From Candidatus Nitrospira kreftii (GTDB lineage: Bacteria > Nitrospirota > Nitrospiria > Nitrospirales > Nitrospiraceae), in NCBI GenBank assembly GCA_014058405.1, contig CP047423.1:744001-808000 (forward strand): a stretch of 64,000 nucleotides of DNA, written 5' to 3'. Under the pieces are notes generated by a model. It ran no database searches and was not told where the DNA came from. It saw only the letters and a list, made by a program, of their open reading frames with translations. Positions within the stretch are counted from its first letter, which is position 1. Every line of letters starts with the position of its first letter. Shown here in pieces: positions 39,248 through 53,107 of this stretch. The translations under genes and the position numbers were made by a program.

Positions 39248-40351
39248 ATGATCAAACCACTTCCTCAGCGTGGGAGACGAAGCACGCCAATTCCGGTGGC
39301 GACGAGCGTCGCCATTATCGGCGCCGGCCGAGGTGGCACGGCGTTGATGGAGATTTTCGCGAACGATCCTCTTGTTCAGATCGTCGGCGTGGCTGAGAGT
39401 AATCCGGATGCGCCCGGTCTGGACCTGGCCAAACAACTGAAGATTCCGATCACCCCCGACTATCGGCAGTTGTTGACGATGGAACGTGTCGACTTGATCA
39501 TTGATGTGTCTGGTGATGCGGAAGTCTGGCAGTTCCTCCAAGATTTCCACCGCATGGGGGTGACCATCATCGGCGGTGCCAGCGCAAAATTCATGTGGGA
39601 GTTGATTGAGGCTCGTATTCGCGCGACGGCGGAGATCGAGAAGACATTGAACAAATATCAATCTCTTTACCGACTCTACGTCAAAGAAACGGGCGCGGCC
39701 GTGACGGACGAACGGACCAGAATCGCCTGCGAGATCCACGACGGATTCGTGCAGATTTTGGCGGGTGTGAACTTCAAGCTGGATCTCTGCCAGCAGCTGA
39801 TCAAGAAAAATCCGCGAGCGAGTTTGGCCACTATCAAGGAGAGTAAGGCCCAACTCAAGCTGGCGATTCAGGAAGCCCGCCAGGTGATCTTTAATCTTCG
39901 TCCGCTGCACTATGAAAAAATGGATCTCATTCCGGGTCTCACGAATTATTTTGCGTCGTACCAGACTCAGACGCACATTGTCACAAAGTTTACCGTGACG
40001 GGGGATGAGCAGACGCTTTTCCCGCGAACCAAGATCTTTCTCTTCCGAATCATCCAGGAAGCTTTGAGCAACGTCGAGAAACATGCGAAAGCCGACAAGG
40101 TATCGATCAAGCTGGAGATGGATACCGACTTGTTACGAGTCATTATTACAGATAACGGTGTGGGCTTTGATATGGAAAAGGTTCTCCGCGACCCCGAAAA
40201 ATGGGACCATTTTGGGATCAAGGGTATCTTGGAGCGAGCGCGATTAGTCGGCGGGGAAGGCCGTGTGGAATCCAAGCCGGGGAAAGGCACCAAACTCATC
40301 GTTGAAGTGCCGTTGGGCAATAAGGAGGAAATAGGCAATGGAGAAAATTAA
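39248..40351 (+). CDS. NarL-partner histidine kinase with N-terminal NAD(P)-binding Rossmann domain
   Basis: 367 residues, no membrane helix. Residues about 18-125 form a dehydrogenase-like Rossmann domain with V-A-I-I-G25-A-G27-R-G-G30, an acidic E50 at the end of the second strand, and V-D-L-I-I-D-V-S-G-D. From about 155 there is a HisKA_3 domain with H164 (RIACEIHDGFVQILAGV, key part E-I-H-D-G), then an ATPase domain with N-V-E-K-H-A and D-N-G-V-G-F-D. The first domain would let the kinase read NAD(H), NADP(H) or a related metabolite in the cytoplasm (inference). Its 3' end overlaps the response-regulator gene by 14 bases. Confidence 0.85.
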   Translation: MIKPLPQRGRRSTPIPVATSVAIIGAGRGGTALMEIFANDPLVQIVGVAESNPDAPGLDLAKQLKIPITPDYRQLLTMERVDLIIDVSGDAEVWQFLQDFHRMGVTIIGGASAKFMWELIEARIRATAEIEKTLNKYQSLYRLYVKETGAAVTDERTRIACEIHDGFVQILAGVNFKLDLCQQLIKKNPRASLATIKESKAQLKLAIQEARQVIFNLRPLHYEKMDLIPGLTNYFASYQTQTHIVTKFTVTGDEQTLFPRTKIFLFRIIQEALSNVEKHAKADKVSIKLEMDTDLLRVIITDNGVGFDMEKVLRDPEKWDHFGIKGILERARLVGGEGRVESKPGKGTKLIVEVPLGNKEEIGNGEN

Positions 40352-41009
40352 AGTCCTCATCGCCGACGACCATCGGGTGGTCCGAGAAGGATTGGCGGCC
40401 ATTCTCAAAACGAAAGAGGACATTCACGTCATCGGCGAAGCCCAGGATGGGATGGAGGCCGTTGAGAAAGCCCGTACGCTGCTTCCCGATGTGATTCTCA
40501 TGGATGTGAGCATGCCAAGAATGGGGGGAGTCGAGGCCACGAGACAAATCAAACGCGAGCTTCCGCACATCGGGATCGTGGCGTTAACCATGTACGAAGA
40601 ACAACAATACATCTTCGACCTCGTGCGAGCGGGAGCGACGGGGTACTTGCTGAAAGACTCAGAATCGTCTCAAATCGTTGCGGCCATTCGTGCGATCTAT
40701 CGCGGTGAATCGCTGATCCATCCTTCTGTCGCCAGTAAAATTTTGGCTGAATTTTCGCTGATGGCTCAAAAAAAAGGGAAGAAGTCGGCGTGGGCCGAAC
40801 ATGATTTGACTGAGCGTGAAATCACCGTCTTACGATTAGTGGCGGATGGGAAAACCAACAAAGAGATCGCCAATAGCCTTGATTTAAGCGAAAAGACCGT
40901 CAAGAACCATGTCCGGAACATCTTCCACAAGCTGCAAGTCTACGATCGCACACAAGCCGCCATCACCGCCATCCGCAAAGGGCTGATCGAGCTGGATCCG
41001 AAGCGGTAA
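40338..41009 (+). CDS. NarL/FixJ-family response regulator
   Basis: 223 residues. Receiver domain with the D-D pair in V-L-I-A-D-D-H, phosphorylated D56 (LMDVSMP) and K in L-L-K-D. LuxR-type helix-turn-helix at about 155-215 (LTEREITVLRLVADGKTNKEIA, key parts L-T-E-R-E and T-N-K-E-I-A, then K-T-V-K-N-H). It should be the DNA-binding partner of the overlapping cytoplasmic kinase. Target genes are unknown. Confidence 0.93.
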   Translation: MEKIKVLIADDHRVVREGLAAILKTKEDIHVIGEAQDGMEAVEKARTLLPDVILMDVSMPRMGGVEATRQIKRELPHIGIVALTMYEEQQYIFDLVRAGATGYLLKDSESSQIVAAIRAIYRGESLIHPSVASKILAEFSLMAQKKGKKSAWAEHDLTEREITVLRLVADGKTNKEIANSLDLSEKTVKNHVRNIFHKLQVYDRTQAAITAIRKGLIELDPKR

Positions 41010-41076: not shown

Positions 41077-42072
41077 TTAGCGACTCGGCCGGAATACGTC
41101 TATGGTATATGTTTTTGGACTTCCATTCGGTGCCGTGACAGTGATCGAGACAGCTGTGGTTGTCCCTAACCCCAGCGAAGTGGACGCTTGGCCTGTTGGC
41201 ACTCCTGCCGCAGCGATGACTGAGCCGAAAGCGGACATCACGGCTTGTGGATCAGACTTGGTTGCCGAAACGATTATACGGTCAACGCCGCTCGCAACGT
41301 TCACCGTGTAGTTCCGAATACCTGCCGCAAATGCTGGATCTAAAGTACCGGCGTTCACAGTCAAACCAGACAGATTATTGTTGTCCATGGGTGCCGCTCG
41401 TTTGATGGTGATGCGGTAGGTCTTTGCGGAGCCATTCTGTGCGGTGACGGTAATCAGCACGTCTTTGGTCGTTCCTGGCCCACCGAGCGGGATCACGGCT
41501 TGACCATCATTGGGTACATCACCAGAAAGCACGGCATTCGGATCGGACTTGGTTGCAGCCATAATTACCGAGGTGACATCGGTCGCCACGTCCAAGGTGT
41601 AGTTTTGCTCGCTCGATGCGAACGCGGGGGACAATCCGGCTGGGATGACCAGCAATTTCGACAAGTCGTTGTTGCCCGCTAAGGAGACCTTGTTGAGAAC
41701 AACCGTATAGGTTCTCGACTTGGTCGTGGATTCGGACACCACAATGCTGACGATCGTGGGGGGGCCTCCTACCGGTCCTACGGTAATAGACCGACTCGTC
41801 GTCGTTTGGCCATCGATCGTCACCGTGTCGCCGGCCACTCGCGGTTGCGCGGAGATAGCCACACTCGTGACGCTGGTGGAGAGATCAACGCTGTATCGGA
41901 TTGTTGTGCTCGCAAAGGCTGGCTGGAGTGTCCCGGGGTTTATAGTCAGGCTAGCAAGTTCTACTTCTGGGTTAATCGATGCTGAGTCCCCACAGCCGGA
42001 AACGATTATGCCAAATGCTACAAGTAGCAGGGCAGTGAAGGATCTGTGTGCGATGGTCGGTGCGTGTTTCAT
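41077..42072 (-). CDS. Lipoprotein with three cadherin-like beta-sandwich repeats (paralogue A)
   Basis: 331 residues from the ATG at 42072, which gives a lipoprotein signal with lipobox V-S-G-C. A longer frame to 42126 adds an unlikely leader. Three repeats of about 95 residues follow, each with N-N-x-L-x-x-L-x-V-x-x-G-x-L-x-P-x-F at the start, Y-x-V-x-V at strand three, a V-x-V-x-A-T-K-S-D-P block and K-T-Y-x-I at the end. This is the cadherin-like beta-sandwich domain (PF12733 type) of bacterial surface proteins. It ends V-F-R-P-S-R. Probably outer-membrane anchored; the ligand is unknown. Confidence 0.85.
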   Translation of the reverse strand: MKHAPTIAHRSFTALLLVAFGIIVSGCGDSASINPEVELASLTINPGTLQPAFASTTIRYSVDLSTSVTSVAISAQPRVAGDTVTIDGQTTTSRSITVGPVGGPPTIVSIVVSESTTKSRTYTVVLNKVSLAGNNDLSKLLVIPAGLSPAFASSEQNYTLDVATDVTSVIMAATKSDPNAVLSGDVPNDGQAVIPLGGPGTTKDVLITVTAQNGSAKTYRITIKRAAPMDNNNLSGLTVNAGTLDPAFAAGIRNYTVNVASGVDRIIVSATKSDPQAVMSAFGSVIAAAGVPTGQASTSLGLGTTTAVSITVTAPNGSPKTYTIDVFRPSR

Positions 42073-42430
42073 GCAGGGGGTTCTCTTTCTGGCAATTGAT
42101 AAACCATTTTGCTCTGGTAAACCCAAACAAGAGGTGTCGAGGTGATAAAAGTGTTCGACACCGACCGGTCACGATTTACGCTAAGTCGAGCAGCGCTTTG
42201 TTCTATAACTGATCTGACCAGTTGGGTCAACAGACTGAATTGAGAGAAATGGGAGATCAGGGGTCAGTCGAACGAGAGGAGATAACACGATCTTAACGGT
42301 GAACCATCTTACTTATTACAGGGACTGATTGTGGCGCTGTGGGAAACTACCAGGGATGCCGAACTTCAGAAGCCGGAAGGTATCGGAACGTGAGGGGAGA
42401 TCAGCGGCAGTTCTGCCTATGGACCTCTGC
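42073..42430. other. Intergenic region between repeat lipoprotein genes A and B
   Basis: A 358-base gap containing the promoter of gene A at 42202-42230. I see nothing else that can be supported. Confidence 0.5.
42202..42230 (-). promoter_or_regulatory. Sigma-70-type promoter of repeat lipoprotein gene A
   Basis: On the minus strand TTGACC, a 17-base spacer and TATAGA (42202-42207), 130 bases upstream of the start codon. The box and spacer sequence is nearly repeated before paralogue C (45525-45553). Confidence 0.65.
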
Positions 42431-43438
42431 CTATCGACGAGATCGGATGAATGTTATGGTGTAGGATCTTCGGCTTACGCCATCCTGTGCGGTAACGGCC
42501 ATCTCGACTTCGGTGCGTCGCCCCTGTATTTGGACCTGTATTTGTCCTGTCGGCGTTCCTGCTGCAGCAATCACTGAACCGAATGCCGACAGCACTGCGT
42601 TCGGATCAGATTTTGTTGCAGAGACGATCACACTGTCCACATCATTGGTAATGTTCGTTCTATAGTCCAGGGTTCCTGAAGCAAAATCAGGCTCCAAGAA
42701 TCCTGGGCTCACCGTCAAGTTAGATAAGCGATTGTCGCTCGAGGGACTCGCTCGAGCAATGGTAATGGAGTATGTTTTTGAGGTCCCATTCGGTGCGGTA
42801 ACGACAATCGAGACCACCTTCGTTGTTCCCGGCCCATCAAGCTTGAGGGTCACTTGTCCTTCATTGGGGACATCGCCCGATATTACAGCATTGGGATCAG
42901 ATTTGGTTGCCGAGACGGTCACTGTATCGACTGAGGTACTCACGTCCAGAGTGTAGTCGAAGATTCCTGCAGAAAAGGCAGGAGACAAGATGCCTGGCGA
43001 GAGGGTCAAACTCTTGAGCGTGTTGTCCCCGCCAAGGGTTATTGCCCTGAGGGTAACGGTGTAGATCTTCGATCTTCCATCCGAGGAAGTGACGGTCAGT
43101 GAAACATCTTTGCTGGACCCCGCTCCTGGTGAGGAAATCGTGGTCTGACCGGTGGCTTGCCCTGCAGGGGCTATCACTGCACCAGACAACACATCATTCG
43201 GGTCGGATTTTGTTGCCGAGACAGTTACCTCGGAAATGTTGCTGGGAAGGTCCACGCCGTAGGTGGTTGTTTCGCTGGCGAACCGTGGTTGGAGGGATAG
43301 ACCGGAGACCGTAAGGTTCGTGAGTTGAGGCCCAGGATCAATCGACCCATTGTCGCTGCAGCCACCAACTGCTAGGCTGTTTGCGACGATAAGAGTGATG
43401 GCGAGATAGCGTGCAACGATGGTGATGAAGGCTCTCAT
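42431..43438 (-). CDS. Lipoprotein with three cadherin-like beta-sandwich repeats (paralogue B)
   Basis: 335 residues from the ATG at 43438. The frame runs upstream to 43585, but the signal peptide and lipobox V-G-G-C only make sense from 43438. Three repeats of about 100 residues follow, with L-T-N-L-T-V-S-G-L-S-L-Q-P-R-F, N-T-L-K-S-L-T-L-S-P-G-I-L-S-P-A-F and N-R-L-S-N-L-T-V-S-P-G-F-L-E-P-D-F as openings. The end F-I-R-S-R-R resembles those of paralogues A and C (R-P-S-R), so the set shares one design. Role unknown, probably cell-surface. Confidence 0.85.
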   Translation of the reverse strand: MRAFITIVARYLAITLIVANSLAVGGCSDNGSIDPGPQLTNLTVSGLSLQPRFASETTTYGVDLPSNISEVTVSATKSDPNDVLSGAVIAPAGQATGQTTISSPGAGSSKDVSLTVTSSDGRSKIYTVTLRAITLGGDNTLKSLTLSPGILSPAFSAGIFDYTLDVSTSVDTVTVSATKSDPNAVISGDVPNEGQVTLKLDGPGTTKVVSIVVTAPNGTSKTYSITIARASPSSDNRLSNLTVSPGFLEPDFASGTLDYRTNITNDVDSVIVSATKSDPNAVLSAFGSVIAAAGTPTGQIQVQIQGRRTEVEMAVTAQDGVSRRSYTITFIRSRR

Positions 43439-43802
43439 GATGGATCCAATTTCGTTCTCTTCTCTTCCTGGATAATCTGTTGGAGTCAGCCACCCGTGTG
43501 AACCATAAGGGTAGATGCAGATGTTACGAAAGGGCTCCTGAATGGGTCTATCCCTACTTGCGTATAGGTGAGCAAGTGCCCGCATGGCTCATCCTAATCC
43601 GATGGGTGAACAGATCGGATGTGGATCCGTCAGCATCGCGAGTGGTGCGAGGCGAAATGGACATCAGTAACGATGAGCATTCCCACGCGGGCTCTCCCTG
43701 GGTACTGTAGGATGAGTGAGTTGTGATGAGCTTTTGAAGGGAGAACTGAGGCGAAGACACAAGCCTCAACAACTCGTTGGGCTTTGAATTATCGAGGACG
43801 AT
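43439..43802. other. Intergenic region between repeat lipoprotein genes B and C
   Basis: A 364-base gap. At about 43600-43625 there is a sequence (minus strand TCTGTTCACCC) resembling the -35 part of the promoters of genes A and C, but the matching -10 is poor, so I do not call a promoter. Nothing else is seen. Confidence 0.4.
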
Positions 43803-45389
43803 TTAACGGGACGGTCGATTCACATTAATCGTGTATGTCCTCGTGCTCACCTGATCTTCTGCGATCACAGAGATCGTGATAGACGTGCTTGTTCCCAGAC
43901 CAAGCGGCACCGTTACACTACCGGTTGGGTTCCCCGGATTGGCGATCGTTCTTCCCAATGCGGACATCCTGGCGTCGGGGTCAGATTTAGTCGCAAAGAC
44001 GATGATGCTGTCCACGCCACTTGCAACATCGACCGTGTAGTTCTGCTCACCAGAGCTAAATCCTGGATTCAAGGTGCCGGAATTGACCCGCAAGTTAGAT
44101 AGGTTGGCGTCCGTTGAGGGTGCCAATCGTTTCACAGTGATGTTGTACGTCTTGGAGGTTCCATTCGGAGCAGCGACGGTGATTGATACGGTCTTAGTGG
44201 TCCCAGGTCCGTCGAGCTGAATATTCGCTTGCCCTCCGTTGGGTACATCCCCAGAGATCACGGCATTTGGGTCGGACTTGGTGGCGGTCACATCGACATT
44301 GGTGACACCGGTTGCCACCTCGACGCTGTACTGCGTGGTGCCGGCAGAAAAGACAGGAGTCAAGGTGCCTGATGACACGCTGAGGCCGTCCAAGTTGTTA
44401 TCTGCCGAAAGCGCCTCGCGGTTTACGGTGATGAAGTATGTTTTGGGGATTCCATTCGGAGCGGTCACAACCACTTCGACCTCGCTAGTCGATGGCCCTG
44501 GTGGCAGAGAGATGGACCGCGACCCCGTATTTTGTCCTTCGATCGTTAGGCTTGCATTCGTATCCTCCGGTGCTGCGGTGACGGTAATGCTCTCAACCCT
44601 TCCACCGACACTGACAGAGTAGCTGGTTCTACTTGGGCTAAACGAGGGGGACAGGGGTCCTGGCGACACACTCAACCTCTGGAGATTATTGTTCCCGCCG
44701 AGGGCTGCGCGAGAGACGACCAGGGTGTACTGTTTCGGCGTACCGTTTTGGGCTGTCACAACGATGCTGACGACGGTGCTCTGCCCAGGGTCGTTCAGTG
44801 GAATGGTTTGGGCTTGCCCTGAGGTCGCGGTTTGCCCGTTCACCGTCATCGTTGCAGCAGGGTCGTCCAAGGTGGGTGTTACCCTCATACTGTTGACGTT
44901 GCTCGCGACAGAGACTTCATAGCTCAGGGTATTGGCATTAAATGGGGAGTCTAAAGGGCCCGGCGAAATCGACAAATTCCGTAACGAATTATTTCCCGTT
45001 AAACTCGCCTTCGTAAGGAGGACCGTATAAGTCCTCGAATTGGTGCCTGATTCTGACACGACGATATTCACGGGAGTCGTTGTTCCAGCCGCGTCTAGGG
45101 CGATGGGGCGGCTTGTCGTTGCCTCGCCATTAATCGTCACGCTGTCGCCGGCGACTGCCGGTTGTGCGGTGACGGTGACACTTGTGATGTTGTTGGCAAG
45201 ATCCGCTTTGTACTGGGTCCTTGCTCCATTAAAGGACGGTTGAAGTGTTCCGGGGGTGACCGCCAGACTGCGGAGCTCTACCACTGGGTTCACTGACGCT
45301 GAGTCACCGCAACCGTAGATGCTCAATGCAGTGGCAATGAGAAGACCGGTGGCTAGAGATGGTCCCACGACGATGGAGAAGCGTTTCAT
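43803..45389 (-). CDS. Lipoprotein with five cadherin-like beta-sandwich repeats (paralogue C)
   Basis: 528 residues from the ATG at 45389 (a GTG ten codons upstream is possible). Lipobox is I-Y-G-C-G-D. Five repeats follow, starting at L-R-S-L-A-V-T-P-G-T-L-Q-P-S-F, N-S-L-R-N-L-S-I-S-P-G-P-L, N-N-L-Q-R-L-S-V-S-P-G-P-L, N-N-L-D-G-L-S-V-S-S-G-T-L and A-N-L-S-N-L-R-V-N-S-G-T-L. The end is N-V-N-R-P-S-R. Its promoter (45525-45553) resembles that of paralogue A. Confidence 0.85.
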   Translation of the reverse strand: MKRFSIVVGPSLATGLLIATALSIYGCGDSASVNPVVELRSLAVTPGTLQPSFNGARTQYKADLANNITSVTVTAQPAVAGDSVTINGEATTSRPIALDAAGTTTPVNIVVSESGTNSRTYTVLLTKASLTGNNSLRNLSISPGPLDSPFNANTLSYEVSVASNVNSMRVTPTLDDPAATMTVNGQTATSGQAQTIPLNDPGQSTVVSIVVTAQNGTPKQYTLVVSRAALGGNNNLQRLSVSPGPLSPSFSPSRTSYSVSVGGRVESITVTAAPEDTNASLTIEGQNTGSRSISLPPGPSTSEVEVVVTAPNGIPKTYFITVNREALSADNNLDGLSVSSGTLTPVFSAGTTQYSVEVATGVTNVDVTATKSDPNAVISGDVPNGGQANIQLDGPGTTKTVSITVAAPNGTSKTYNITVKRLAPSTDANLSNLRVNSGTLNPGFSSGEQNYTVDVASGVDSIIVFATKSDPDARMSALGRTIANPGNPTGSVTVPLGLGTSTSITISVIAEDQVSTRTYTINVNRPSR

Positions 45390-45728
45390 GAAGGCTGCCG
45401 ATTTTTCTGTTTGTTTCACGTGACGGGCCCGCCGGTTTTTGATGATTACGCTGCGTAGTCAGTGGGTCAAGAGAGGACTCCATACCGAACTGTCATGACC
45501 AATGTCGTAGACTACGCAATCAAACGTATAACGAATCTGATCGGTCGGGTCAACAGAGCGACTGAGGAGTCGTGAGGGTTGCGAATGGTGGGATGTCCGC
45601 AAGGCGGCGGAAATGCTACCTAAGTTCGGTCTTTCTTCGTTTGGCACCCAGTCCACAGAGCAAGACGGCTGTGGGGAATATCGTGAACGTTAAGGCGGTC
45701 GCGCCGTTGGTATTGCCCGCCAGGCTAC
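45390..45728. other. Region between repeat lipoprotein genes C and D
   Basis: A 339-base stretch. It holds the promoter of gene C at 45525-45553 and, at 45616-45740 on the minus strand, an open frame that looks like a lost C-terminal anchor of gene D (see findings). Confidence 0.5.
45525..45553 (-). promoter_or_regulatory. Sigma-70-type promoter of repeat lipoprotein gene C
   Basis: On the minus strand TTGACC, a 17-base spacer and TATACG (45525-45530), 136 bases upstream of the start codon. It shares the -35 box, the flanking TCTG and most of the spacer with the promoter at 42202-42230. Confidence 0.65.
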
Positions 45729-48002
45729 TTATGGTAATGGTGTCCCAGGGGCTCCGGTATCGATCGTCACACTTAAAGTTGGGCTCTGGCCAGACTCGCT
45801 CCCTCCGTTGGATACTGTACTGGTAATCGAGTGGACCCCATCGCTCAGCGATGACGGCGGAGTAAGGGTGGTGGCTCCCTGATCAAATCCGTCTTTGACC
45901 TTCGTCCCGTCAACATAGAGGTGTGGTGTTTCTCCGGCCCCTGGTTGAGGTATTGTGAAGCTTGGTGTATTGACGTTGGTAATATTGTCTTCCCGACTAG
46001 TGCCAGGCGCGCACTGGTTGGGATCCAGAGGATCGGGAGGTTCAAGAAGGGGGCACGAGTCAGACTGCGGTATTAGATCTGGTGCGCTCGCCGGCGCTGG
46101 TGGTGCCGCTGGCGCTGGTTGGTTAACGGTAATGAGATACGTCTTATCAGTGCCATTCGGTGCAATCACGCGAACTTCTATTTCGGTGTTGGCTGGACCA
46201 CCTGGTAGCGGGATGGAAAGGGAATTCCCCCCTTGGCTATTGATCGTCAAGGTTGCACTTGAGTCCTGGGGAGCGGCCTCCACGAGAATGGAAGTAGCGC
46301 TGCTACTGACGCTTACGGTGTAGGCAGTTCTGGCTGCAGTAAACGCAGGGCTCAAGGTACCCGGCGATACAGTTAAACTCTGCAAGTTGGTGTTTCCGCC
46401 AAGTGCAGCCCGATCTACCGTCACGGAATATGTCCTCGGCGTGCCGTTAGGCGCGGTCACCACGGTATTGATCACCGTGCTCAAACCAGCAGCGCGTAAC
46501 GCAATAGTTCTGGCCTGCCCAGAGGTGGTGGACTGCCCGTTCACCGTCATGGTCGCCCCGGTATCTTGCAGCGTGGGTGTGACCGTGACGCTGCTCACGG
46601 TGCTCGCCACGTCCACCGTATAGTTTGTCGTGGCTGCGGTAAACGCAGGAGCGAGCGGGCCTGGCGAGACGGTCAAGCCAGACAGGTTGTTGTTCCCGCC
46701 AAGGGCGGCACGACTCACGGCAACCAGGTAGGTTTTCTGGCTCCCGTTCTGAGCCGTCACGGTAATCGTGATGGGCGTGCTTTGGCCGGGGCCGTTGAGT
46801 GTTATGGTGCGCGCCTGTCCGGAGGTCGCGGCTTGCCCATTCACGGAGATCGTGGCGTTGGAATCTTGCCGAGTGGGCGTGACCGAGACACTTCCAACGG
46901 TGCTTGCCACAGTCGCCGTATAGCTTAGGATGCTGGCGTTAAAGGCTGGAGACAACGTGCCCGGCGAAACGGTCAGGCTCTGCAAGTTGTTATTAGCCGC
47001 AACCCCTCGACTCACGGTAATCAGGTAGCCTTTCTGGGTCCCGTTCTGGGCCGTTACGAGAATCGTGATGGGCGTGCTTTGGCCGGGGCCATTGAGTGTT
47101 ATGGTGCGCGCCTGTCCAGAGGTCGCGGCTTGCCCATTCACGGAGATCGTGGCGTTGGAATCTTGCCGACCGGGGGTGACCGAGACACTTCCAACATTAT
47201 TAGCCACATTGACTGAGTAGCTAAGTAGGTTGGCGTTGAATGTGGGGGCTAAGGTCCCTGGCGACACAGTCAAGCTTTGGAGGCTGTTATTGCTAGATAA
47301 CCCACCGCGATTCACGAAAATCGTATAGGTTTTCACGGTGTTGTTCTGCGCGGTCACAACTATATCAATGCGGGTGTTCGAATCCGGATCTCCCAGCGTG
47401 ACAGCACTAGGCTGCCCAGAGATTGCGGCTTGCCCGTTCACAGTCATGGTCGCTGCTGGATCTGAAGGTGTGGGGGTTACAGTGACACTTCCGACGTTGC
47501 TGGCAACATCGACAGAATAGCTCAGCGTTTCTGAATTGAATCCAGGGGGAGGCAGTGTCCCTGGCGACACGGTCAGGCTCTGCAATGAGTTGTTCCCGGC
47601 TAAACCTGCCCTAACCAGTCTGACTGTATAAGTTCTGGAGTTGGTGGTTGATTCTGAAACCACAATATCGACGACGGTGGTTGATCCTGGTGGGTCTAGT
47701 GTAATGGGTCGGCTCGTTGTCGTCTGGCCATCAATAGTTACGGAATCGCCGGACACCGCTGGTTGAGCGGAGACGGTTACGCTCTGGATATTGCTGGATA
47801 GATCGACTCTATATTGAGTGGTTCCGCCATTGAAGGCTGGTTGGAGTGTTGCAGATCCGTTCGTTAGCGCGACCTCCAGGCCTGCGAGTTCCACCACTGG
47901 GTTCACTGTTCCTGTGTCGCCACAGCCGTAGGTAGCCAAGCCGATAGCAGAGAAAAGAAGAGCGCCGATACAACGTCCAGCGAGTGGGAAGGCTTGTCTC
48001 AT
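45729..48002 (-). CDS. Lipoprotein with six cadherin-like beta-sandwich repeats and an Ig-like C-terminal domain (paralogue D)
   Basis: 757 residues from the ATG at 48002. Lipobox is T-Y-G-C-G-D. Six repeats follow, several opening with N-N-x-L-Q-S-L-T-V-S-P-G-T-L. Repeats three and four are nearly identical in DNA (unit of 297 bases, about 46770-46900 against 47068-47200). After a proline-rich linker (P-A-A-P-P-A-P) come a D-N-I-T-N-V-N-T-P-S-F motif and V-T-I-D-T-G-A-P, the mark of bacterial Ig-like repeats of Bap-type adhesins. The frame stops abruptly there. A shifted frame downstream continues with a hydrophobic, basic-tailed end. Confidence 0.85.
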   Translation of the reverse strand: MRQAFPLAGRCIGALLFSAIGLATYGCGDTGTVNPVVELAGLEVALTNGSATLQPAFNGGTTQYRVDLSSNIQSVTVSAQPAVSGDSVTIDGQTTTSRPITLDPPGSTTVVDIVVSESTTNSRTYTVRLVRAGLAGNNSLQSLTVSPGTLPPPGFNSETLSYSVDVASNVGSVTVTPTPSDPAATMTVNGQAAISGQPSAVTLGDPDSNTRIDIVVTAQNNTVKTYTIFVNRGGLSSNNSLQSLTVSPGTLAPTFNANLLSYSVNVANNVGSVSVTPGRQDSNATISVNGQAATSGQARTITLNGPGQSTPITILVTAQNGTQKGYLITVSRGVAANNNLQSLTVSPGTLSPAFNASILSYTATVASTVGSVSVTPTRQDSNATISVNGQAATSGQARTITLNGPGQSTPITITVTAQNGSQKTYLVAVSRAALGGNNNLSGLTVSPGPLAPAFTAATTNYTVDVASTVSSVTVTPTLQDTGATMTVNGQSTTSGQARTIALRAAGLSTVINTVVTAPNGTPRTYSVTVDRAALGGNTNLQSLTVSPGTLSPAFTAARTAYTVSVSSSATSILVEAAPQDSSATLTINSQGGNSLSIPLPGGPANTEIEVRVIAPNGTDKTYLITVNQPAPAAPPAPASAPDLIPQSDSCPLLEPPDPLDPNQCAPGTSREDNITNVNTPSFTIPQPGAGETPHLYVDGTKVKDGFDQGATTLTPPSSLSDGVHSITSTVSNGGSESGQSPTLSVTIDTGAPGTPLP

Positions 48003-48050
48003 TTTAAACCTAATCACTTTCTCGAATGTCGGAAGTTAGTGAAGTGGGCG

Positions 48051-48079
48051 ATTCTATGAACTCGGATGAGTAGTTTTAA
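48051..48079 (-). promoter_or_regulatory. Possible promoter of repeat lipoprotein gene D
   Basis: On the minus strand TTAAAA, a 17-base spacer and TAGAAT (48051-48056), about 50 bases upstream of the start codon. The -10 matches five of six positions, the -35 four. Confidence 0.4.
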
Positions 48080-48228
48080 CGGCAGGCACTGGCATAGGGT
48101 AAATCTATCCATATTACCTATATTGGAAGCCGGGAATGTACGTATAGCTGAATCGTAGGGGTCAGGTCAAGAGTCCAAATGGCCCTGTGGTGGGTGCATA
48201 CCGAGGCAATACGGACGATACAGTATCT

Positions 48229-49818
48229 TTAGAATAATGCCCGGGTGATCGTAAGGGAGTAGATCTTAAAGTCTCCATTCGGTGCCATGACGGTGATCGT
48301 CACCGGCGTGGGTAGTAGTGGTATGGGGAGATCAATGGTCGCTTGGCCCGTTGCTTGTCCTGATCCGGCGTTCAGGGAACCCGACATCACGGCATTCGCG
48401 TCGGATTTCGTTGCCGAGACTATTACACTATCGACGCTGAACGGAACGGCAACCGTATAGTCGGTTGTGCTTGGAGCAAAGTCAGGAACTAAGAGGCCTC
48501 CCGTTACAGTTAATACAGCCAGGTTGTTGTCGCTTGCTGGTGCTGCTCGGGTAACGGTGATGGTATAGGTCTTAGAAACGCCATTCGGAGCGGTCACGAT
48601 AATCGATATGACTTTGCTGGTTCCGGGTCCATCGAGCGGGATCGTCGCTTGTCCTTGGTTGGGCACATCACCCGATATCACCGCATTTGGATCGGACTTC
48701 GTTGCTGTGACGGTCACTTCAGTCACAGTGGTTGCTACATCCACCGTGTAATCCAAGGTGGCTGCGGCAAAAGGAGGATTCAGAGAGCCAGGTGTGATCG
48801 TCAAGGCCGACAGGTTGTTGTCGCTGGATAGAAGACGGTTGATGGTGATGGTATAAGTTTTCGAGTCGCCATTCGGAGCGGTCACGATAATCGATATGAC
48901 TTTGCTGGTTCCTGGTCCATCGAGCGGGATCGTCGCTTGTCCTTGGTTGGGCACATCACCCGATATCACCGCATTTGGATCGGACTTCGTTGCTGTGACG
49001 GTCACTTCAGTCACAGTGGTTGCTACATCTACCGTGTAATCCAAGGTGGCTGCGGCAAAAGGAGGATTCAGAGAGCCAGGTGTGATCGTCAAGGCCGACA
49101 GGTTGTTATCACCGGAGAGACGATTCACGGTGATGGTATAAGTCTTCGAGTCGCCATTCGGAGCGGTCACGATAATCGATACGACTTTGCTAGTTCCTGG
49201 TCCATCGAGCGGGATGGTTGCTTGTCCTGTTTTGACTCCTGCTCCAGCAGTTACCGAACCGGACATCACGGCATTCGAGTCCGACTTGGTTGCGGAAACC
49301 GTCACGCTGGTGACGTTGGTGGCAACATTTACGGTGTAGTCCAAGCTGCTCGAGGCAAAAGCGGGAACCAAGCTTCCTGGCGTTACGCTCAAGGCCGACA
49401 GGTTGTCGTCGTTCGATAGGAGTCGCGTGACCGTGATGGTATAGGTGGTCTCACCGCCGGTCTGCGATAACAGTTCGATGAGGATTGTGGTGGTCGATCC
49501 TGGCACGCCCAGCAAGATGGTGCGTCCCTGCCCTGCAGCGGTGACAACCCCGTTGATCGTCATGGTTACCGTGCTGCTCTTGGGGCTAGCCGTCACAGTC
49601 ACGCTGGTGGCAGAATTCGGCGCATTGACTTTATAGTTCGTCGTATTGCTGAAAAACGCCGGTTGAAGTGCACCGGGGGTGACCGTCAAGCTGGAGAGCG
49701 GTACTGCTACGTCATCCGAAATCGACACGGTATCCTTGCAGCCATAGAAACTCGGGCCGAGGGCGAGGAGAAGGACGGCGACAAACCGTTGTCCTGCCTT
49801 GACCAGATTCCGTCTCAT
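48229..49818 (-). CDS. Lipoprotein with five cadherin-like beta-sandwich repeats (paralogue E)
   Basis: 529 residues from the ATG at 49818. The upstream extension to 49971 is out of character with the family. Lipobox is F-Y-G-C-K-D. Five repeats follow. The third and fourth (openings N-N-L-S-A-L-T-I-T-P-G-S-L-N-P-P-F) are almost identical in protein and DNA, a tandem duplication of 288 bases. It ends S-L-T-I-T-R-A-L-F. First of the five tandem genes in transcription order, each apparently with its own promoter. Confidence 0.85.
   Translation of the reverse strand: MRRNLVKAGQRFVAVLLLALGPSFYGCKDTVSISDDVAVPLSSLTVTPGALQPAFFSNTTNYKVNAPNSATSVTVTASPKSSTVTMTINGVVTAAGQGRTILLGVPGSTTTILIELLSQTGGETTYTITVTRLLSNDDNLSALSVTPGSLVPAFASSSLDYTVNVATNVTSVTVSATKSDSNAVMSGSVTAGAGVKTGQATIPLDGPGTSKVVSIIVTAPNGDSKTYTITVNRLSGDNNLSALTITPGSLNPPFAAATLDYTVDVATTVTEVTVTATKSDPNAVISGDVPNQGQATIPLDGPGTSKVISIIVTAPNGDSKTYTITINRLLSSDNNLSALTITPGSLNPPFAAATLDYTVDVATTVTEVTVTATKSDPNAVISGDVPNQGQATIPLDGPGTSKVISIIVTAPNGVSKTYTITVTRAAPASDNNLAVLTVTGGLLVPDFAPSTTDYTVAVPFSVDSVIVSATKSDANAVMSGSLNAGSGQATGQATIDLPIPLLPTPVTITVMAPNGDFKIYSLTITRALF
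48592..49155 (-). repeat. Tandem 288-bp near-identical repeat inside paralogue E
   Basis: The same 288-base (96-codon) unit occurs twice, for example ATCGATATGACTTTGCTGG at 48602 and 48890. Over most of the unit only a few bases differ. The low divergence, compared with the other repeats, points to recent duplication or gene conversion. Confidence 0.8.
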
Positions 49819-50053: not shown

Positions 50054-51433
50054 TCAGTGCTTGGTTTCTGAACTGTCCTTCGACCGGGCAAGGAGCTCTG
50101 TCTTAGTGGGAATCTGAGTGAGTAGGTCCGGGCGCACTTGAAACACCCCGTTCAGTCGTTGACCGGTGGCATAGAGCAGATCGCCTGCCCGGTTTCCGAG
50201 CGTCAGTTTCCCAATCGTTCTGCCGTCTTTGCTGGTGGCAACAAATTCAGCAGCTGGTGCCAGTAGCCCATAGGGAGCAAGGGGTGCGGATTGTTTCATC
50301 ACACGTTCTTCTGCAGGATGGTTCGCCACACGGCTGACAAACAGATCAGCGGCTTCCTGACCGACCTTCATCATGGGCTGATCTTCAAGGACCCACTCGC
50401 CGCTTTGATTGATCAACACATACTGCTTATCTCTCGTCTTCACTGACAACATGGCCACGTCCGTAGAGTCGAGACCGAGGAGTCGCTTATCCTGAAAGTT
50501 GAACAGATCTCGTGTCAGGTCCTTGATCAAAACTGGGTTAATGCGATAGAGCGGCCCATCCGGTGTGGTCTCTGCAATCGCCTCACCACTCTGAGGGTCG
50601 GGTTGATACAGACGGACTGACTGGTCGCCTACCGCGGTAGACAGCGCCACCTTCACTTTTTGCGTGGTCAGGGTCGTTGCGACGGTATCTCGCTCTGGTC
50701 CTGGGTCGATGATGCTCAGGGCTTTCAGATCTTCCAACCGAAACATCAATGACCGAACCTCATTCTGGTCGGCTTCTGCTTCGATAGGATAGATGATTTT
50801 CCACGAGGGTCGAGGCTTGTTTTTTGCTGTGTTGTCGATCACGATTTCGGTGGTCGGGTACGTCAGGCGGACTCGTTCGACATCGTTTTGCGCAAATCGC
50901 AAGAGATCCTTCCGGCGGAAGGTCATCAAGGATTTATTGATGAAGTCCTTTGGCGCGAGGGTCGTCAGCAACACGCGCCGATCCGATCCACGAAGGACGT
51001 ACAGGGTATTGGAGAGGGGTCCGCTGTCGCCGATAGAAATTGTTTCCTGCTGCGTCCCCGCCGTGACAGTCAGGGTGGTGACCGGCTGTTCGAGTCCGAA
51101 TGGTGCCAAGGTGGTGGTTTGCTCTTCGAGGGTCCGGGTAATGGTTCCTGTTACCAGCGCCCGAATCAGCGATTGCACTTCGCGATTGTCGGCGTCTGTT
51201 TGAAGCGGAGCCACGATCGACCATTTCCCCGGTGCGTCCAGCTTGAACCTGATCGGTCCTTGAGCGGAGGTGATCGAAAGCCCGGTAATCGCGGTCTCCG
51301 GGAACGGTAGAAGTTGCTTCTGCGCAGTCTCTTGTTTCTCTTCCTGTTCTTTGGTGGGAAGCTCCACGAGATAGAGATAGCCGCCTAGACCAGCGAGAAT
51401 CAGTAGCATCAGGAGTGTAGGCCGGTAATGCAT
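50054..51433 (-). CDS. DUF4340 domain-containing protein of a Gld-type ABC system
   Basis: 459 residues. One N-terminal membrane helix (L-L-M-L-L-I-L-A-G-L-G-G-Y-L-Y-L) and a large periplasmic part with repeated W-x-I-x-x-P-x-x-x-x-A-D patterns (KWSIVAPLQTDADNREVQSL, key parts P-L-Q-T-D-A-D and I-Y-P-I-E-A-E-A-D). This is the DUF4340 repeat protein that is regularly encoded after GldG-like genes. It is the last gene of the ABC operon here. Role in transport unknown. Confidence 0.85.
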   Translation of the reverse strand: MHYRPTLLMLLILAGLGGYLYLVELPTKEQEEKQETAQKQLLPFPETAITGLSITSAQGPIRFKLDAPGKWSIVAPLQTDADNREVQSLIRALVTGTITRTLEEQTTTLAPFGLEQPVTTLTVTAGTQQETISIGDSGPLSNTLYVLRGSDRRVLLTTLAPKDFINKSLMTFRRKDLLRFAQNDVERVRLTYPTTEIVIDNTAKNKPRPSWKIIYPIEAEADQNEVRSLMFRLEDLKALSIIDPGPERDTVATTLTTQKVKVALSTAVGDQSVRLYQPDPQSGEAIAETTPDGPLYRINPVLIKDLTRDLFNFQDKRLLGLDSTDVAMLSVKTRDKQYVLINQSGEWVLEDQPMMKVGQEAADLFVSRVANHPAEERVMKQSAPLAPYGLLAPAAEFVATSKDGRTIGKLTLGNRAGDLLYATGQRLNGVFQVRPDLLTQIPTKTELLARSKDSSETKH

Positions 51434-51435
51434 AT

Positions 51436-51559
51436 CAGGATGGTGAAAATCGCCGCCAGCTGCGTTCTCGCATCGTTCGGACCCTCAACGTACTCCAGAG
51501 AGTACGCCTCGGCCCCGTACTTGCTGCGGCCTTGCTGGACAGCAATTTTGACCATCCTG
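51436..51559. repeat. Palindromic intergenic element (REP/MITE-like)
   Basis: The ends CAGGATGGTGAAAATCGCC (51436 on) and GCAATTTTGACCATCCTG (to 51559) are inverted repeats of about 25 bases with a few mismatches. The centre has CGTACTC-CAGA-GAGTACG, a seven-pair hairpin. No reading frame of worth is inside. The whole 124 bases can fold into one long imperfect hairpin. It sits between two genes of one operon. Only one copy occurs in this window. Confidence 0.6.
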
Positions 51560-51583
51560 CAAGAGATAGGTAAAGAAGGCCCA

Positions 51584-53107
51584 TCATAATCGTCTGCGCT
51601 TTCTCCACACGATGATGCCGGTGAGCAATGTCAGGAGGGGAAGGAAGACAACCTGAATATAGATCAGCGCCCGTTCCTGGGTGGGGTTGGGTGTGAATGG
51701 CCGCAACGCAGGCTCTTTCGGTGCGATGGAGATCAAGTCTCGTTCCTCGGCCAGCCACCCCATCGTATGGAGAAAGAAGTCGCTGTTGCCGGGAAAATTA
51801 AAGAAGGCATTGGATACGAAGGTAGAGTTGCCGATGACTGCGATGGCCGGGCGAGGTTTGCCTTCTTCGGGGGCCTTCTTTGGTGACAATGCAGCGGCCA
51901 TGGGGAGCGGTCCTTTCACATCTTCCTTTTCGCTTAAGCTCACGACGCGCCCTTGCATGTTGGTTTCGGCCCAACTGTTCGGCGAGGTGCGAGCCAGCGG
52001 CACGAAATCCCAGTCTTTCCCGACTTGTTCGTCGAAGGTCACATGCCGGGAGAGCGGTAACAATACGGCGGACGTGAGGTCCTGCGTAATCTCATGCTCG
52101 GTAAACGTTCTGACCAACAATGCGGTGAGATCGCCTTGGGCCAACCGATCCTGCAGATCCACTAATACGCCTGAGCCCAGACCGAGACCCCAATGGGCAA
52201 GTAATGATTCCAAGCCGGTCTGGGTATCGGGATCGGCCAACACCAAGAGGTGGCCACCTTTCTCCACGTATACCCGAATACGGTCCTGCTCGTCTTTCGT
52301 CACGGAGCGGCGTGGACCGGCTAGCACCAACACCGATGTGTTGTCGGGCACGGCGGACTCCTTGAGGAGTGAAAGAGTGCCGACGTCGTATCCCTGTCGA
52401 ATCAGGGCTTCTTTGGCGATCGAAAGACCGTTGCGTTCCTTGTCCTCGACATTCAATTCGCTGTGGCCTTCGAGAAAGACGAGCCGTTTTTTGGAATCCT
52501 TGGAGATACGAATCAAGGCACCGGTCAACTCGACCTCAGACGGTGATGTGACACGGATGGTCTGTCCATCGCTCTCAAAAATAGCCGTATCGGTTCGGAA
52601 GATCCCGTAGTTCTGGGCTATCTTGGGCTGTTTCTCGGGATCAATGAACTCCACGCTGAGCTTGCCCGAAGCTTGTCGATAACTCTCCAGTCGTTCTTTA
52701 AATGCTTGATAGCCAGGATCCTTTTCCCGAGTGAACACAGTGATTTTGACGTCGCGCGGCAACGTTCTGAGGACGCGATAGGTTTGCGGCGCAAGCGTGA
52801 AATTCTGATTCTCCGAGAGATCCCACCGCACGGAGTGGCGGGACGCGAGAAAGTTCACGATGATCAGAATGCCCGAAAAGAGTAGGATCATCAGGACGCT
52901 GTTCAATCCCATCTTGGTGGAGCGTCGACCGGAGAACGCCTTCACGGTCTCGAAATGCAAGACGAAGAAGAGCACCAAAGAGATGAGCGCTGCCCCCTCT
53001 GCAATGGTGACACCCCACAGCCAGTCCGGTCGAAGGCTGTACACAATCATGCCGCCGATTGCGAGTACGACTCCGATCAGACCGAGCGGAAGAGATTTGA
53101 GGTTCAT
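51584..53107 (-). CDS. GldG-like ABC-associated protein
   Basis: 507 residues. Two membrane helices near the N-terminus (about 8-28 and 35-52), one at about 70-90, and one at the C-terminal end (V-V-F-L-P-L-L-T-L-L-T-G-I-I-V-W). The middle is the GldG/ABC-type uncharacterised transport domain: FLASRHSVRWDLSENQNFTLAPQT, key parts R-W-D-L-S-E-N and F-T-L-A-P-Q-T, then V-E-F-I-D-P-E-K-Q. It follows the permease gene with a four-base overlap. Confidence 0.88.
   Translation of the reverse strand: MNLKSLPLGLIGVVLAIGGMIVYSLRPDWLWGVTIAEGAALISLVLFFVLHFETVKAFSGRRSTKMGLNSVLMILLFSGILIIVNFLASRHSVRWDLSENQNFTLAPQTYRVLRTLPRDVKITVFTREKDPGYQAFKERLESYRQASGKLSVEFIDPEKQPKIAQNYGIFRTDTAIFESDGQTIRVTSPSEVELTGALIRISKDSKKRLVFLEGHSELNVEDKERNGLSIAKEALIRQGYDVGTLSLLKESAVPDNTSVLVLAGPRRSVTKDEQDRIRVYVEKGGHLLVLADPDTQTGLESLLAHWGLGLGSGVLVDLQDRLAQGDLTALLVRTFTEHEITQDLTSAVLLPLSRHVTFDEQVGKDWDFVPLARTSPNSWAETNMQGRVVSLSEKEDVKGPLPMAAALSPKKAPEEGKPRPAIAVIGNSTFVSNAFFNFPGNSDFFLHTMGWLAEERDLISIAPKEPALRPFTPNPTQERALIYIQVVFLPLLTLLTGIIVWRKRRRL

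Follow-up and report, generated by a model that had tools for sequence, protein, structure and literature searches.

Gene organization and domain content

The DNA analysed here, referred to as the window, is a stretch of 64 000 nucleotides from Candidatus Nitrospira kreftii. In the list of its open reading frames, positions 41077–49818 of the minus strand are filled by five genes, here called A to E. An hmmscan search against Pfam found 3, 3, 5, 6 and 5 copies of PF12733, the Cadherin-like β-sandwich domain, in genes A to E, respectively (22 in total), all of them above the curated cut-off of 24.2 bits. The E-values per protein range from 1.4e-33 to 2.5e-98 and therefore exclude chance matches. 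The features of the array are as follows.

41077–42072, minus strand: gene A, lipoprotein; likely start ATG at 42072; lipobox VSGC with its Cys codon at 41994
41692–41958, 41398–41631 and 41089–41367, minus strand: the three PF12733 repeats of gene A (Pfam)
42431–43438, minus strand: gene B, lipoprotein with a 'SIDPGPQ' start; likely start ATG at 43438; lipobox VGGC
43049–43324, 42752–43018 and 42443–42727, minus strand: the three PF12733 repeats of gene B (Pfam)
43803–45389, minus strand: gene C, lipoprotein; likely start ATG at 45389; lipobox IYGC
45012–45275, 44709–44984, 44415–44681, 44127–44366 and 43812–44102, minus strand: the five PF12733 repeats of gene C
45729–48002, minus strand: gene D, lipoprotein; likely start ATG at 48002; lipobox TYGC
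47610–47852, 47307–47585, 47007–47282, 46710–46985, 46410–46682 and 46122–46385, minus strand: the six PF12733 repeats of gene D
45756–46004, minus strand: Big_13 (PF19077), the Ig-like C-terminal end of gene D, E = 5.1e-10
48229–49818, minus strand: gene E, lipoprotein; likely start ATG at 49818; lipobox FYGC
49423–49698, 49120–49401, 48835–49101, 48547–48813 and 48241–48513, minus strand: the five PF12733 repeats of gene E

The reading frames, repeat counts and lipoboxes bear out the original prediction of five tandem lipoprotein genes with about 22 cadherin-like repeats. The additional Ig-like end foreseen for gene D proved to be a Big_13 domain, which follows the repeats after a Pro/Ala linker containing a Cys pair. 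A frameshift at the end of gene D, with a tail containing a hydrophobic stretch in another frame, was considered and ruled out because the stop codon after Big_13 lies at the same place in relatives. None of the five proteins has a match in NCBIfam, and no known adhesive domain was recognised in them by the Pfam search. Cadherin_3 (PF16184) gave no match in the genome in a search whose control gave no signal either.

Across the single-contig 4.13 Mb genome PF12733 occurs 29 times. Outside the array, six copies lie in one gene at C1:452949–454724 and one in a gene at C1:3640222. The gene with six repeats is a sixth member of the family (L077 4839–6944; about 452.8–454.9 kb of the contig) and appears to lie on an integrated element, since integrase, Rep_trans, RadC and HTH genes accompany it near a tRNA-His gene. 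Two further architectures were observed: a lipoprotein-like gene (L078 3983–5896) in which seven FG-GAP_2 repeats come after a single PF12733 domain, and a gene in genome G007 (L061 3898–5895) that lacks a lipoprotein signal and encodes a TIR_2 domain at the N-terminus as well as four PF12733 repeats.

Predicted fold of the repeats

An AlphaFold model of gene A, computed with 28 homologues, has a pLDDT of 91 and about seven strands per repeat; its pTM is only 0.55, which would be in keeping with flexible joints between the domains. Among solved structures, the best match is to a domain of AgaBb, a galactosidase of Bifidobacterium (8yk1; Z = 12.9, 1.5 Å, 91 residues, 22% identity). This match came from the fold only, the sequence search having returned no solved relative, and the VIA structure comparison covered only the chains ranked by Foldseek. 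From these models the PF12733 repeat is predicted to be a seven-strand β-sandwich, in agreement with the β-sandwich named in the original prediction. The model of gene D shows six of these domains, followed by a tail predicted with less certainty; its repeats and tail align with SiiE (2yn5, Z = 10.2; 2yn3, Z = 9.7), with an r.m.s.d. above 12 Å over several domains.

The description of the repeats as cadherin-like holds for the general fold but does not extend to the calcium motifs of true cadherins. The array repeats share the general Greek-key β-sandwich arrangement with eukaryotic cadherins, and Foldseek lists cadherin ectodomains; however, the VIA matches to these are weak (Z about 7, r.m.s.d. 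above 15 Å), and no paired interdomain calcium motif (DxD, DxNDN) was found in 330 repeats, across which one column is conserved and strongly acidic (Asp in 84%).

Lipoprotein signals and predicted location

Each of genes A to E begins with a short basic segment and a hydrophobic stretch, followed by a lipobox with Cys at +1 (from a pattern search, so that processing is predicted), as had been proposed. Among the repeat-bearing frames in relatives, 88 of 107 passed the automated lipobox pattern; of the remaining 19, inspection by eye showed a lipobox deviating slightly from the pattern in nine, and the other ten are truncated, are broken or encode a TIR protein. Asp occupies position +2 in none of the 88 frames and is almost invariant at +3. 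Because Asp is absent from +2, the outer membrane is the favoured location by the rule of Escherichia coli, which may not be that of Nitrospira.

A lipobox alone does not confer surface exposure, and no Slam, LES or other export signal has been established for the array proteins. They might be anchored in the inner leaflet of the outer membrane and face the periplasm as structural spacers or binders of envelope glycans, with none exposed outside. It fits such a role that PF12733 is also an accessory domain of glycoside hydrolases and that the closest solved domain belongs to a galactosidase. Nevertheless, members of three to eight domains side by side, an Ig-like tail and the mosaic turnover of alleles described below are more usual for exposed proteins, and we consider a wholly periplasmic role rather doubtful.

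Promoter-like elements and leaders

A motif search located three promoter-like elements in the array.

42204–42230, minus strand: promoter-like element before gene A, TTGACC-N17-TATAGA
45527–45553, minus strand: promoter-like element before gene C
48143–48170, minus strand: promoter-like element before gene D

Genes B and E are preceded only by degenerate forms of the element. The general form TTGAC-N16–20-TATANN precedes 43 of 94 array genes, in almost every case 195–257 bases before the lipobox Cys codon, and matches 50 times overall when about 1 Mb of strand sequence is searched. A tighter pattern, itself derived from the array copies, matches three times in the whole 4.1 Mb genome (before A, C and D), the reversed control giving no match. 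Some TTGACC-N17/18-TATA copies contain a GACC/GGTC inverted repeat near the −35 box, a possible operator candidate. When the 5′ leaders of the array genes are aligned, a conserved TGAACCCTCTCGT...GTTTGGGTTCACC box is seen, which may be a DNA site. A conserved RNA hairpin in the leader (GAACCC/GGGTTC) was also considered and was rejected, as RNAalifold gave no structure.

Chromosomal site and distribution

The array is bordered by two conserved gene groups.

39248–41009, plus strand: left border, HisKA_3 sensor kinase and LuxR-type response regulator; conserved, not array-specific
50054–53107, minus strand: right border, DUF4340 protein and GldG-like ABC auxiliary protein; conserved

In every locus for which both flanks are available (n = 23; two pairs are the same contigs, leaving 21 independent arrays), the array lies between the LuxR-type regulator and the DUF4340/GldG/ABC locus. 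The regulator protein of relatives is 95–98% identical to the window copy. A two-component system specific to the array was ruled out: each of the 15 relatives searched has the kinase, and at least ten of them have no repeat match. The sensor kinase (39248–40351), very conserved in the genus, has a Rossmann-type N-terminal part, with a weak DapB_N/GFO_IDH match, before HisKA_3.

In a tree built from five flanking proteins, all arrays fall in a single Nitrospira clade, and in a sample of the phylum a match was found in 22 of 245 genomes and three of 115 genera. Outside the clade, the site is empty in genome G021, whose flanking genes lie about 0.2 kb apart, genome G017 has a hybrid PAS sensor kinase in the array site (L122 4303–7503), and in several other genomes the flanks are far apart or on different contigs. 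The comparison collection holds one genome per species, so the variation described below is between species. Many of its genomes are MAGs assembled from short reads, a method that can collapse near-identical repeats; the window genome and G024 each consist of one contig.

Repeat number, allele exchange and selection

The 21 independent arrays contain three to six genes, with eight frames in G007, where genes are broken. In that genome (L060 7711–12052) two array genes are split by frame shifts beside near-identical repeats, representing either an assembly error or truly broken genes. Three repeats are found in the regulator-side gene of 20 of 21 arrays and in the SIDPGPQ gene of 12 of 12; the other internal genes have five in 24 of 33. 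The Ig-tailed gene, usually one per array, ranges across species from two to eight repeats (mostly five to eight when intact) and the DUF4340-side gene from one to seven (mostly three to six). Repeat gain and loss is therefore real but limited to certain members, mainly the Ig-tailed and DUF4340-side genes. The proposal of a family growing by repeat gain and loss, with numbers differing among related genomes, stands for these two slots, where the counts across species and near-identical adjacent repeats support it; it does not stand for the short slots or the middle gene, the regulator-side and SIDPGPQ genes staying at three repeats and the middle gene usually at five.

Of 254 adjacent repeat pairs, 16 share at least 80% DNA identity, 12 at least 85%, eight at least 95% and two 100%. 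Within the window, only D r3/r4 (84.2% of nucleotides) and E r3/r4 (96.2%) look recently duplicated, and repeats from different genes share only about 45–75% protein identity. The repeats fall into position-specific types (first, middle and last) and are thus not interchangeable copies.

Alleles are mosaic between close species. None of the seven repeats of the Ig-tailed gene of CG24B has a close DNA match in its sister SFBin53, and the DUF4340 genes of the two are 94.8% identical. The regulator and gene 1 are 100% identical in DNA between G012 and G018, and glyA differs by 7%. The array genes with measurable divergence have dN/dS values of 0.15–0.31, compared with 0–0.18 for the flanking genes; they are under weaker constraint and, with dN/dS below 1 when averaged over the gene, give no indication of positive selection.

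That last result would suit a repetitive locus drifting neutrally, in which copy-number change is a by-product of recombination with no adaptive role, and recent duplications are common in any tandem repeat. Yet slots A, B and C are constant in repeat number over the whole clade, the lipoboxes and the tail end are conserved and a promoter-like element is shared, which makes pure drift very improbable. The pattern of exchange raises another alternative, a recognition or defence-escape locus encoding a phage receptor, decoy or kin-recognition surface, whose alleles would be exchanged to escape phage or to mark self, with adhesion secondary. Complete replacement of an allele between sister species at a fixed site, 100% identical blocks common to otherwise diverged genomes and the homologue adjoining an integrase, a Rep_trans gene and tRNA-His in the same genome all speak for it, but one scan found no viral relative, the array has no toxin, immunity or partner gene and the short slots are constant. 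We regard this alternative as unlikely.

Proposed function

Gene exchange among related species at a conserved site and a repeat number that changes in only some of the genes suggest a fast-evolving cell-surface coat, probably for sticking together. In the explanation that we prefer, with confidence evenly balanced, the array is a clade-specific Nitrospira locus at a fixed site for outer-membrane stalk lipoproteins that form a surface coat for adhesion or recognition; location, exposure, adhesion and the type of selection are what we infer. The lipidated N-terminus would sit in the outer membrane, followed by a rod of three to eight seven-strand β-sandwich domains, and one member per array would usually end in a SiiE-type Ig-like domain at the end far from the membrane. 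The locus evolves by gene duplication, by tandem duplication and loss of repeats in the longer genes and by recombination between paralogues and between species; the short members hold a constant length. In flocs and biofilms, the resulting coat of mixed lengths would most likely serve recognition and the adhesion of cells to one another or to the matrix, and its exposed alleles may be turned over by selection from phage, grazers or partner specificity. A bolder version, which we put forward only tentatively, is a hypervariable recombining surface repertoire, each species having its own stalk set of constant short and variable long members with exchange in blocks; this repertoire would encode the specificity of aggregation or allow the surface to escape phage.

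Flocs and biofilms are home to Nitrospira, which are important both as nitrite oxidisers and as complete ammonia oxidisers. To our knowledge, their adhesion molecules are largely unknown, and in a literature search that covered few subscription papers, none of the results listed dealt with cadherin-like proteins of Nitrospira. The array offers a concrete set of adhesion candidates, testable owing to its fixed address, conserved flanks and a relative with an empty site. The presence of constant- and variable-length members in one repeat family also makes it a natural experiment on the control of repeat number.

Comparison with known systems

The Lig proteins of Leptospira are lipoproteins. LigA and LigB resemble the array proteins in architecture, being tandem Ig-like β-sandwich surface proteins from related genes, and are experimentally adhesive (PMC7821625; PMC3133549). 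Unlike the array proteins, they are built of bacterial Ig (Big) domains rather than PF12733 and act on hosts (PMC7821625; PMC3133549), and they do not form a set of three to six genes occupying one fixed site of an environmental autotroph. Fibrillar adhesins likewise combine repeated stalk domains with anchoring, but their definition needs an adhesive domain (PMC8286594), whereas no known one was recognised in the array proteins; the main text of that study makes no mention of cadherin-like domains. Giant adhesins of the Bap/SiiE type share the Big_13 end of gene D and the fold match to SiiE (2yn5/2yn3) over repeats and tail. Gene D, however, has fewer than 762 amino acids, a single Big_13 and a predicted lipid anchor, and is not a giant secreted protein.

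Periscope Proteins are rods of tandem folded domains whose number is changed by recombination, which is expected to alter projection length, and Big_13 is among the stalk domains shown in a review of them (PMC8201768; PMC9704523). The Ig-tailed gene of the array similarly varies in repeat number among relatives, mostly from five to eight across species. Periscope repeats were sought as tandem repeats exceeding 50 residues at 80% identity or more, whereas in the arrays 80% DNA identity is reached by only 16 of 254 adjacent pairs, including single pairs in D and E. The anchors described for Periscope Proteins are cell-wall or β-barrel anchors, while the array proteins are predicted to be lipid-anchored and form a multigene family with constant and variable members. 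On this comparison, in which the array appears to share part of the features of each group, Leptospira Lig would be the closest functional analogue and the Periscope Proteins the closest concept for length variation.
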